A stretch of 32,969 bases of DNA. Source: a virus. Shown one piece after another: positions 1,951 to 18,984 of the stretch. The position numbers were made by a program, and so were the translations under genes. The notes beneath the pieces are model-generated. The model saw only the letters and a list, made by a program, of their open reading frames with translations. It ran no database searches and was not told the origin of the DNA. The DNA is taken from positions 1-32,969 of the IMG/VR virus record IMGVR_UViG_3300030380_001818; one strand, 5' to 3'. The first letter of the stretch is position 1; the number at the start of each line of letters is the position of its first letter.

Positions 1951-4900
1951 TGGAAATTACTGTTCCTAAAGCTTTACCATTTAATACTGGTGGTCGTCTT
2001 CCTAAAACAGAAGCGCCAACTTTGGGTGAAACTGGTAATGCTCAGTATGGAAAAATTTTTAATCCAATAAAAAATCAGTTAAATTTTTATACTAGAACAA
2101 GTACTTATGATCCTGATTCTCAAGAAAGAATTGAGGACTTTATAAAAGTAAATGAATTAAATGAAAATGATGCTCGTTATTTAAGAAGTTTTGGGATTGG
2201 TTCTCCAGAAAACTTTTCTGCTGCACTTAAATTTATTGAGAATAGAAGAAAAAATTATAGTGTTTTAAATAGGTCAACAGGTTTAAATTTATTTGTTACT
2301 GATCCTAGTTTGCATGTATCATTGGGAATTCCTGCTGGTGGAATACTTGCTTCAAAGTATTTAAAAAGTACACTTGCTAATGTAAGTCAAGCTGCAAGCT
2401 TGGCAGAGCGTTCTTATTTTGCTTATCCAAAGCATGCTTCTTCAATTTTACAAGATGCTGCTCGAGCTAAATTAATTCTAAGAAATGCTCCAGTTGATTT
2501 AGCAAAGCTTGGTGCATTGGATGCTGCTGTTGTAGAAGGAAGTATAAGTCTTACTGACGCATTAAGCGAAATAAGTGAGGGTGAAGACCCAGTAGAAGAG
2601 CTTACTAATGCAGCTTTATGGACTATGGGGTCAACAGCTATTGGTGGTACTTTAGGTTATACACTTGGCCTTGCTGTTCCTAGACCGCAAGCAGCTAAAA
2701 CAAGAAAGCAAAACTTTAATAATAATTATAAAGATTATTTAAAGAGCATTTCCGAAAACCCTTTAAATCGTAGTGCAGAATTACAAAAAAGTTATGATGC
2801 AGAAAACATTAACAATAAAAAATTTAATAAAGTTTTTGATGAAATAAAAGAATTAGAAAATCAACTTTCAAAGTTAAATAATGCTTTGCAAGATTTAGAT
2901 ATTGATAAAGCAAAAAAACTTGCAAACAAACAAAAAAAACAACGAAAAAAAATTAAAACAGAAACAAAAAAATTAAAAACAGAATTAGAAAAATATGGAA
3001 AAGAAAATCAACGTATTCTGAAAGAAAGAGAAAATATAAAAGAAAAAAAAGGCAAACAAGACATTTCTTATTCTGGAGATTGGTTTACTAATTCTTGGTT
3101 TATGAAAGCTGTTCCTACACCAGTTAGAACTACAATACAAGATAAAAAATTACCTGACTTTGCAAAAGAAGAAATGCTTGATCTTGGTGGTGATAATGGC
3201 ATGCCATTTATTATGAATCAAATTGGTAAAAGTGCTGGTAACTCTGCTTTTACTGAAATTGGTCGTAGACAAGGTGATTGGTTTCAAGCTCTTGATGTTA
3301 TTAATAGAGATTATAGAAAAGTAAGTCCTAGAGGTTTTGCTGAGTTTTTTAATGTGCCAGTTGGTGAGTATTATGAGCGTATTCGCCGCAAAATAGGAAA
3401 AGATAGTTTTGCTCCTGATGAATGGTACACTCGTATTGGTCAGCTAATGATTGATGAAGTTCCTTATGAAAAGATGACTCCAGAAGAAGCCAGCTCGGTA
3501 CAAGCTGCACGTACCTTCTTTGAAAAGTATGCAAAAGAGCTAGAAGAAGAAGGCTTAATAAATGCAAAGGATGTATTTGAAGACAGCTATTTAAAGAATG
3601 TTGGTCGTCAAATGAAACTTCAAAGCGTAACTCAAAGTATTATTGCACAAAATAAAAAATGGATGACTCCTCAGCGAGACAGTCTTGCAAAAGATATAGA
3701 GAAAGTAACAAACAAACTAAAACAACTAAATAGAACAGCAACAACAAAAGGTCTTACAAAGGATCAGGTTAAGTTTAAAAAAGATTTAGAAGATGAACTT
3801 GTTATGAAGCAAGATGTTATTGGTAAGTTTGATGATGCTTTTGACAAAATTAATAATGCTAAAGATGTAGAAGAACTTGCTTTGCTTTATAACCAGCTTG
3901 ATTTAACGCCTCTTATGAGGTCTGCATTAAAAGATATTTCTAAAGCTATAGATGAAACAAGAGGTCGAATAGACAATGCTCTTGAGCTTTTAGAACGTGG
4001 CGTTAGCAAAGAATCTACTGGTAATTATTTAATGAGAATATTTAACCGTAGAGCTATTGAGGCTGATCGTGATGGTTTTAAAGCTATTTTGTATAAATGG
4101 TTTAAAGAAAACAATGAAGTTATTGTAAAAGGTGATGATGGATTATTTAAGTTTCAAGAGCTTTCTACTGAACCTGCTGCTGTTGAGCGAAGAGTTAATG
4201 AAACTATAGAGAATATTTTAGGTGAAACTGATGAAGATGCTATTGATGCAATCTTTACAGGTTTTGGTCGTAGTGGTCCACTTGTATCAAGAAGATTAAA
4301 TATTCCTAATGCTTTAGTAAAAGATTTTATTGTGACAGACATTAAGGAATTAATGATTGCTTACACCAATAGAGTTGCACCTAGAATTGAATATCATAAA
4401 CGGTTTCGTAATCCAGAAACAGGTAAGATAATGACACTTGAGGCTCGGCTAGATTACTATCGAACTAGGCTACAGAATGAAGGCGTTGACGAAAAAACAA
4501 TAAATAAATTTATTAAGAACTTTGTTGCAGTTTATGATCAGGTTGTAGGAACAAAGTTAAAGCGTCCTGATGCTATAGATACAAAGATTGCTGATTTTCT
4601 TAGAACAGCTACAAGTTGGACATTTTTAGGTGGCTCAGGTTTTGCTGCTGTTGCTGACTCTGCATCAATACTTATGGATCATGAGCTAAATGCTATTGGT
4701 CGTACTTTCTTAGGAATGATGGATGATCTTTCTTTGAAGATGGCAAAGAGAGAACTTAACCTTGCTGGTGAAGCTTTAGAATTTGTCCGAGGAACTACTC
4801 ATTTAAAATATATGGAAAGCCTTACTAATGATGTATTTAGTAAAACTATTCCAGATAAGCTAAACAATGTTTTCTATACTTTTAATGGACTTGGGCCAGT

Positions 4901-17417: not shown

Positions 17418-17942
17418 TCAAGAAGCCTTCTTCTTCTTCTTGCTTGGTTCATCATTAGCTGGTTCAGCCATGCCTAGTGCTTCAAGCTGTTGCTGAAGGT
17501 CGGTCGGTATGTCTGACTCAGAGGCGACAGGTACGTTTGACCCCTTGGCTGAACCATACGGCATGTAGTCTTCTCCGTATGATTCGATGTAAGCCTTGTG
17601 TAGTTGACTCGACATGTCGGTTAGTACCGTATGCTTATCGGCTGCTGCTTGGCAGTTAGCGATAGAGCCGCGAAGCCTGATCTCTGAGATTTCGTCTCCT
17701 CGGTACGTCTCTTGTGCGTACTTCACTCTCGCTCTTTGCGTATCAAGGTAGGCTTCGCTACCAGATGGCTTAGTGCTGCTGTTCTTTCCTTTAGTAAGCC
17801 AGTACAGCTTGTCCATCATGGCTTCCATCATGATCTTCCGTGGGAAAGCCATCTGGTCTTCGTGTACCCACTTGTCTTCGTATGAGTTATAGATTTCTGT
17901 ATCTAGTGTAAGATTGATAAGTTCATTGATTAGCTTAGACAT
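17418..17942 (-). CDS. First leftward early protein, unknown function
   Basis: 174 residues, strong RBS AGGAGAACAAA. The sequence is hydrophilic: an acidic N-terminus (MSKLINELINLTLDTEIYNS), a helical middle (YLDTQRARVKYAQETYRGDE, then LHKAYIESYGEDYMPYG) and a C-terminus ending in a run of five Lys (SKKKKKAS). No recognised domain. It is the gene nearest the divergent control region and has its own terminator, so it is likely the first and perhaps the most abundant early product. Its base composition is less AT-rich than that of its neighbours. A host-takeover or DNA-binding role is possible but not shown. Confidence 0.72.
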   Translation of the reverse strand: MSKLINELINLTLDTEIYNSYEDKWVHEDQMAFPRKIMMEAMMDKLYWLTKGKNSSTKPSGSEAYLDTQRARVKYAQETYRGDEISEIRLRGSIANCQAAADKHTVLTDMSSQLHKAYIESYGEDYMPYGSAKGSNVPVASESDIPTDLQQQLEALGMAEPANDEPSKKKKKAS

Positions 17943-18030
17943 TTTGTTCTCCTATATCTGTCTATGTTTTACATACATTCTTCATGTACAGGAATAGGAG
18001 AGGCTAGCGAATCTGTTCACTGCAAGGATC

Positions 18031-18381
18031 GCCAAGACCAGCTTCGCTGGCGGTAGGCTCGTTACGTCATCTTGTATGACGTTACGAACTGCCGTCCTTG
18101 TGGTGGGCTGATTCGTAAGCCCAACTGGAAGTTAGTATTGTAAGATTGTGTGTGAGAGATAGATCAATGATTGAGCGAGTGAGGGATCGCTCAGTTACTA
18201 GGGCTTACTCAGGCAATCGATGGAGTGGACGAGCTTTGCTAAAGCAAAGTCGGGAGTGTAGGCGATTGACCAAGCTAGACATAGAAGCGAGACCTCGCAG
18301 AGCGAGATCATAGTGTCAAGCACTCCTTAGGGAGTGTAGAGTGTGCGGACACTTGGTGAATTAGGGGTCAATCCCCTAATT
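18031..18381. ncRNA. Multi-hairpin noncoding region, candidate structured RNA or packaging/origin site
   Basis: No plausible gene. At least eight inverted repeats lie in a row: CCAGC/GCTGG (18038-18050); an 11-pair stem with one mismatch (18060-18086); TGGGCT/AGCCCA (18104-18123); TGAGCGA/TCGCTCA (18172-18193); CAATCG/CGATTG (18214-18268) enclosing CTTTGC/GCAAAG (18234-18249); CACTCC/GGAGTG (18321-18336); AGTGT/ACACT (18340-18353); and AATTAGGGG/CCCCTAATT (18359-18381). G+C is clearly higher than in flanking sequence. A TATAAT box on the minus strand at 18401 would make it a long 5' leader of the leftward transcript. Confidence 0.5.
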
Positions 18382-18400
18382 AGCCAAATGACCCCACGTA

Positions 18401-18424
18401 ATTATACTAGTGACGTAACGTCAC
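18401..18424 (-). promoter_or_regulatory. TATAAT box beside a TGACGT palindrome
   Basis: The minus strand has a perfect TATAAT at 18406-18401. Directly next to it on the upstream side lies GTGACGTAACGTCAC (18410-18424), 7-bp arms around one base. No good -35 is seen at 17 bp, so an activator or repressor binding the palindrome may control this leftward promoter. Confidence 0.45.
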
Positions 18425-18458
18425 ATATTGACAGGTTAGTACAAACTAGTGTCCAAAT

Positions 18459-18481
18459 GGGGGGAGAGAGGGAGAGGGGGG
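18459..18481 (+). other. Polypurine G-tract upstream of small terminase gene
   Basis: An unbroken purine run with G6, G3 and G6 blocks separated by AG repeats, about 130 bases before the terS start. A second G-rich tract (G6-T-G6) begins in the terS stop codon. G-tracts flanking terS could mark the packaging recognition site, since pac sites often lie in or near that gene. Inference only. Confidence 0.35.
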
Positions 18482-18524
18482 CTAGTAAATGAAACAATGG
18501 TTTAGAGTATCTCAATCCTTCTAT

Positions 18525-18553
18525 TTGAATGACGTCAAACTCTTAGCTATATG
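18525..18553 (+). promoter_or_regulatory. Candidate rightward promoter before terS
   Basis: TTGAAT (18525-18530) and TATATG (18548-18553), spacer 17 bp, each four of six to sigma70 consensus. ATGACGTCA (18529-18537) overlaps the -35. The hairpin CAGCAC/GTGCTG (18562-18581, loop TTAGTTAG) follows in the would-be leader. Confidence 0.35.
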
Positions 18554-18609
18554 TTAGTATACAGCACTTAGTTAGGTGCTGCTTGCAACACTAAGAAGAA
18601 GGATATGAG

Positions 18610-18984
18610 ATGCTTCCAGCTGATAAGAAGTTAACTGATAAACAGATGGCTCTGGTGGATATAATGGTAGCAAAAGGTTTACCAGCAGCTAAAGCCGCTG
18701 TTGAAGCTGGATATGCTGAAGGTAAATCTGGATATGTATCTGCTTACAAAGCATTGAAGACACCTCATGTGCAACAGTATATGATGCAACGAATGAATGA
18801 GGAGTTTGGACTAAGTGCTACCGTAGCGGTTAACACAGTTCGTAGACTCTCTCAGAACGCTAAGTCTGAGTATGTTCAGCTTGAGGCTAGTAAGGATTTG
18901 TTAGATCGCGCTGGGTATAAACCCATCGATCGATCACAGGTACAAGTGGCAGGGGACATAAAAGTTTCCATTGACCTTAGCTAG
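18610..18984 (+). CDS. Terminase small subunit
   Basis: 124 residues, preceded by AAGGA. The N-terminal half has the HTH-type DNA-recognition fold of phage small terminases: KLTDKQMALVDIMVAKGLP, AAKAAVEAGYAEG, SGYVSAYKALKTPHVQQYM. A longer helical part follows, with a C-terminal tail (DRSQVQVAGDIKVSIDLS) that could contact the large subunit. It should recognise the packaging site and load the motor. Unusually, it is separated from the large subunit by ten small genes (about 2.1 kb). It is the first gene of the late strand, next to the control region. Confidence 0.82.
   Translation: MLPADKKLTDKQMALVDIMVAKGLPAAKAAVEAGYAEGKSGYVSAYKALKTPHVQQYMMQRMNEEFGLSATVAVNTVRRLSQNAKSEYVQLEASKDLLDRAGYKPIDRSQVQVAGDIKVSIDLS

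Follow-up and report, generated by a model that had tools for sequence, protein, structure and literature searches.

Replication origins that work through an R-loop are the described systems closest in layout to the locus analyzed here. ColE1 requires RNAII together with a guanine-rich stretch, and at the mitochondrial CSBII the G-runs located behind a promoter form a hybrid G-quadruplex R-loop (PMC6317783). T4 oriF is an R-loop origin in which a promoter is combined with an unwinding element (PMC3016281). The structured RNA element that we describe, designated type A, resembles ColE1 RNAII in being followed, on the RNA-sense strand, by a guanine-rich stretch, and all three systems in having a promoter close by and an apparently host-dependent replication, likenesses that concern the layout only. 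As in a ColE1-type origin, no initiator of its own was detected in the phage by PHROG and Pfam scans. Unlike RNAII, to which it shows no sequence relation in Rfam, the type A element occupies a slot that carries exchangeable RNAs, a second promoter box precedes the G-run, and R-loop priming would here be a predicted function.

The window, that is, the whole stretch of 32,969 nt that was analyzed, is a 33 kb virus contig (IMGVR_UViG_3300030380_001818) of a marine podovirus. Its nearest isolate is Pelagibacter phage EXVC031P Hodr, with identities of 62% for the head-tail adaptor and 47% for the terminase small subunit (terS). Since the contig ends (31907-32969 and 1-1057) overlap by 1.06 kb with 88% identity, the contig has the look of a complete genome of about 31.9 kb that was assembled as a circle, with ends that come from mixed strains. 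The early genes occupy 17942 to 12054 of the minus strand, and the late genes are on the plus strand, starting with terS (18610..18984; PHROG terminase small subunit, E 1e-13) and forming an operon of about 25 kb downstream; the structured region is the gap that separates these divergent halves. The first early gene (17418..17942, minus strand, 174 aa) has a relative in 26 of the 26 type A loci with enough flank, and its protein gave no match worth keeping in PHROG, PDB-sequence and fold searches.

The first-pass annotation had described a 350 nt stretch at 18031-18381 as gene-free, dense in inverted repeats and higher in G+C than its surroundings. Many inverted repeats are indeed present there and just beyond, among them three with arms of 27 nt (18002-18028/18095-18121), 12 nt (18059-18070/18076-18087) and 25 nt (18343-18367/18373-18397). 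The interval 17943-18609 holds no ORF of at least 60 aa, and 18001-18500 have a G+C content of 0.49, compared with 0.37-0.46 in the left flank and 0.42 in the right flank. When 17980-18420 were folded, the energy on either strand was below that of all 100 dinucleotide-shuffled versions (z of -6.5 for plus and -7.5 for minus). The region held up but its limits did not: covarying helices reach from about 18002 to 18387, and 18002..18390, on the plus strand, are better bounds for the type A element.

The element starts with a 5' domain (18002..18121, plus strand) that consists of a long stem P1 (18002-18028 with 18095-18121), a hairpin at 18038-18050, a stem formed by 18051-18056 with 18089-18094 and another hairpin at 18059-18087. 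The distal part of P1 is swapped for another fold in four loci (L020, L110, L108 and L123) that retain the P1 base and the core. The core (18119..18174, plus strand) is mostly unpaired and nearly invariant in the alignments; it starts with GCCCAACTGGAAGTTA. That its first 16 bases are identical across type A loci follows from how the search was built; the remainder is conserved in the alignments. A pairing of 18115-18122 with 18201-18208, seen in the window, was discarded, as by eye it was lost in the relatives and it competes with P1. The 3' multi-helix domain (18167..18311, plus strand) is closed by 18167-18172 with 18306-18311 in the plus-strand alifold structure. Two 3' hairpins, at 18320-18337 and 18353-18387 (18320..18387, plus strand), correspond to helices 5, 7 and 8 of the pair count given below, and no U-run was found behind them.

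A terS search of IMG/VR provided 80 related loci. Near terS these loci have in common operator-like palindromes, a TTGACA box and a G-run, and farther upstream their DNA changes between different structured cassettes. The core word GCCCAACTGGAAGTTA served to collect the loci that carry the same cassette as the window, type A. About 46 distinct type A loci were found in IMG/VR, all in an identical context between the first early gene (minus strand) and the terS promoter, as judged from the loci whose flanks are long enough to show the early gene at one end and the G-run with terS at the opposite end. In all of the distinct loci the element lies ahead of the G-run or terS, at 297-416 nt as measured from the core to the G-run. 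A relaxed core pattern yielded zero additional loci in viral contigs, the core pattern had no match in bacteria and archaea searched with one genome per species, and the region used as DNA query had no match among isolate phages.

The 5' domain was aligned in 15 loci and the 3' domain in 10. With the structure derived from the window, 94.6% of the cells of the 5' domain can pair and 14 of its 48 pairs are changed on both sides, against 25-39% of cells and 1-4 double-changed pairs when the partners were slid by 1-3 columns; with the alifold structure, the 3' domain shows 94.2% of cells pairing and 16 double-changed pairs out of 77 (12 of them in helices 1-4) against 1-5 in the slid controls, the aligned sequences being related, the structures derived from the same data and the shuffle counts not probabilities. 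Judging from these controls and from the variety of pair types, the covariation is very unlikely to have arisen by chance. A covariance model, built on the plus strand from the 5' domain plus the core, scored the window with 202 bits on plus and 31 bits on minus. The majority of the divergent subtypes reached 73-103 bits, L123 43 bits and the truncated L108 48 bits. The covariance-model search that the first-pass annotation had proposed found the relatives with our own model but no family in Rfam: the window and 15 relatives gave no match at the gathering score (GOLLD, ROOL, OLE, pRNA and RNAI included), and only chance-level matches with E of at least 0.33 at relaxed thresholds. The cassette of another five loci (type B; L011, L014, L026, L071 and L072) is recognized by the type A model partially and with weak scores (E 0.003-0.01), which suggests that it is perhaps a distant homolog with another core. 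The first-pass reading of a large structured noncoding RNA is strongly supported by the homolog covariation, and we have high confidence, as to structure and strand, that a structured noncoding RNA element of about 390 nt, belonging to a new family, is encoded here on the plus strand. It represents a well-supported large phage RNA family that Rfam lacks, carried by a common group of marine phages.

The strand differs from the minus strand originally proposed. When helices were predicted on both strands and the five subtypes were summed, G-U occurred on plus in 24 pair columns versus A-C in 3 (binomial p 5e-5 if columns are independent). This asymmetry and the model score indicate that the RNA reads on the plus strand in the direction of terS. 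The whole-element consensus fold favours plus in every tested subtype (-150 versus -114 kcal/mol in subtype A-i). An unrefined alignment of the 5' domain over all subtypes, with a consensus fold of -6.6 for plus and -8.0 for minus, was of too low a quality to discriminate the strands.

Next to the RNA, the operator-like palindromes TGACCCCACGTAA and TGACGTAACGTCA (18389..18423) recur upstream of TTGACA in many relatives. The TTGACA (18428..18433, plus strand) is conserved in relatives and has a counterpart in Hodr, where TTGACA-17-TATACT is located at the corresponding place; this suggests that it is probably the -35 box of the terS (late) promoter, which would put the G-run near the predicted transcript start. 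The double G-run GGGGGGAGAGAGGGAGAGGGGGG (18459..18481, plus strand) is the same or mirror-symmetric in relatives, and others show two runs of 5-7 G. It is identical in 199 of 222 loci, a proportion that overstates its conservation because an exact G-run search supplied some of the loci; GGGGGGAGAGAGGGAGAGGGGGG is also the majority form among the loci found by terS alone. The variants alter both arms as mirror images (AGA/AGA, AA/AA, AGAA/AAGA, G6/G6 and G7/G7), and other relatives, whose spacers are unrelated, retain only the two stretches of seven or five G. The double G-run looks like a quadruplex-, triplex- or R-loop-forming element. The exact 23-base G-run was also observed in a much larger virus contig of 137 kb (L195), with no TTGACA or terS seen nearby. 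The idea that contig ends near the G-run are genome ends was dropped, as assemblies also break at G-runs.

Given the layout precedents of RNAII, CSBII and T4, the reading that we tentatively prefer, with less than even confidence in the full mechanism, is that the cis-acting plus-strand RNA and the G-runs constitute an R-loop origin that primes replication. A replication origin was also among the roles listed in the first-pass annotation. The structured RNA would be the upstream part, in cis, of a longer plus-strand transcript, which would pass the operator region without terminator and enter the double G-run. There, the G-rich RNA would stay hybridised to the C-rich template strand as an R-loop, possibly with a hybrid G-quadruplex, and host polymerases would start leading-strand synthesis from a processed RNA 3' end that serves as primer. 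How the transcript enters the hybrid would be controlled by the RNA fold, as it is for RNAII at ColE1. Such an origin agrees with the plus-strand covariation, with the position of the RNA ahead of the G-run or terS, which is constant in every type A locus, and with the conservation of a G-run whose variants keep two long G runs; in 37 of 40 loci no terminator-like site was found that would separate the RNA from the G-run. The phage encodes recombination proteins (a RecE/YqaJ-like exonuclease, an SSB, a RusA-like resolvase and another protein, whose PHROG family is named as an exonuclease). The PHROG and Pfam scans, in which remote homologs could be missed, detected neither a polymerase, a primase or a helicase nor an initiator. 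Since no replisome proteins were detected, the phage would have to draw the host replisome to its own DNA. However, no sigma-70-like promoter was enriched upstream of the RNA, the TTGACA sits between RNA and G-run and that promoter alone could serve the G-run, the gap of Hodr is rich in hairpins but has no G-run, and type D, a second large cassette of the same slot, gave an almost even strand count of 26 to 22 in the same kind of G-U/A-C test. Of 36 representative loci, most have structured sequence ahead of the G-run, and the plus fold is the more stable in 32, a comparison that is also influenced by G-U pairs and base composition; different structured cassettes in one slot, most of them more stable on plus, fit a position-dependent role. 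A broader proposal, which we regard as doubtful, is that widespread marine podoviruses free of replisome genes start replication at an RNA-controlled R-loop/G-quadruplex origin beside terS whose pre-primer RNA is exchangeable, unrelated large RNAs replacing each other in the slot. If the origin model were true, ColE1-like initiation would extend to a large virus group. RNA, operators, terS promoter and G-run all lie within 500 bases, so the origin, leader and trans-RNA models are separable.

The orientation of the RNA, co-directional with the late operon of about 25 kb, would also suit a cis-acting leader or regulatory RNA of that operon: transcription started upstream would continue into terS, and the RNA would modify RNA polymerase or gate late expression, in one variant by antitermination like HK022 put. 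Like put, type A is a hairpin RNA of the plus strand located close to where a long phage operon begins, and both the missing terminator and the constant distance to terS are consistent with a leader. Yet the TTGACA promoter box separates the RNA from terS and the upstream promoter such a leader needs was not seen. The known put RNAs are much smaller than the type A element, which lies upstream of the terS promoter box, so that size and position set the two apart. We judge a late leader rather unlikely.

GOLLD and ROOL are carried by phages (PMC12286853), and the element could be a trans-acting large ornate RNA similar to them in kind, discrete and abundant in infection, for which the present location would be a convenient exchange slot. 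With them it shares being a large, elaborate, phage-borne noncoding RNA, and its size, its long conserved unpaired core and the exchange of its domains as modules speak in the same sense. But it measures about 390 nt against more than 600-800, it differs from them in sequence and fold (no Rfam match), and it is always found beside terS and not near tRNAs, a tRNA scan of the window having found none. Its invariant position by the terS promoter and the G-run in all loci makes this explanation unlikely.

That the element serves packaging, as a pac site by terS or as an RNA of the packaging machinery comparable in role to phi29 pRNA, is improbable. Its location directly upstream of terS hints at a possible packaging link of a phage structured RNA, and terS, G-run and promoter remain together across cassette switches, but the block that stays with terS is precisely the G-run and promoter, not the structured cassettes, which swap freely. 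Moreover, unlike a pRNA phage, this one has an ordinary TerS/TerL pair in the profile scan, and Rfam gave no pRNA match. A DNA element that folds as a single strand, such as a site where primase acts or replication initiates on the displaced plus strand, would account for the covariation, which by itself cannot tell RNA from a folded DNA strand. This reading is very improbable in view of the many G-U pairs of the long stems (29 pair columns in subtype A-i), which suit RNA better, and of the large conserved unpaired core. Equally hard to credit is the minus-strand leader of the early operon put forward in the first-pass annotation: its TATAAT exists in the window (18401-18406), early mRNA may well traverse the region and a neighbouring hairpin can cover the ribosome site of the early gene, but by eye the TATAAT is absent from most relatives, and the G-U/A-C asymmetry and model score favour plus.

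In this hairpin, at 17948-18001, the ribosome site belonging to the first early gene (TCTCCTAT...ATAGGAGA) is base-paired, and by eye its inner stem differs in sequence among relatives with the pairing kept; a translational control of the early operon is possible. The type D cassettes were observed in six loci (L002, L009, L067, L161, L168 and L184), about 150-400 nt upstream of the G-run, and have no match in Rfam. In them a 5' hairpin loop (e.g. GGACCACCC, GGCCAACCC or GAACCGCC) is complementary to a 3' segment (GGTGGCC, GGTTGGC or GGTGGTTC), an arrangement that, by eye, resembles a covarying pseudoknot; the output of an automated pseudoknot search was noise and was set aside. Used as DNA queries against isolate phages, the other cassettes matched nothing but Hodr and a few marine phages, and these weakly. 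In the hairpin-rich gap beside terS, Hodr shows a long hairpin (L154, about 3660-3880) with the G-run absent, and this phage offers a cultured system for a possibly related element.
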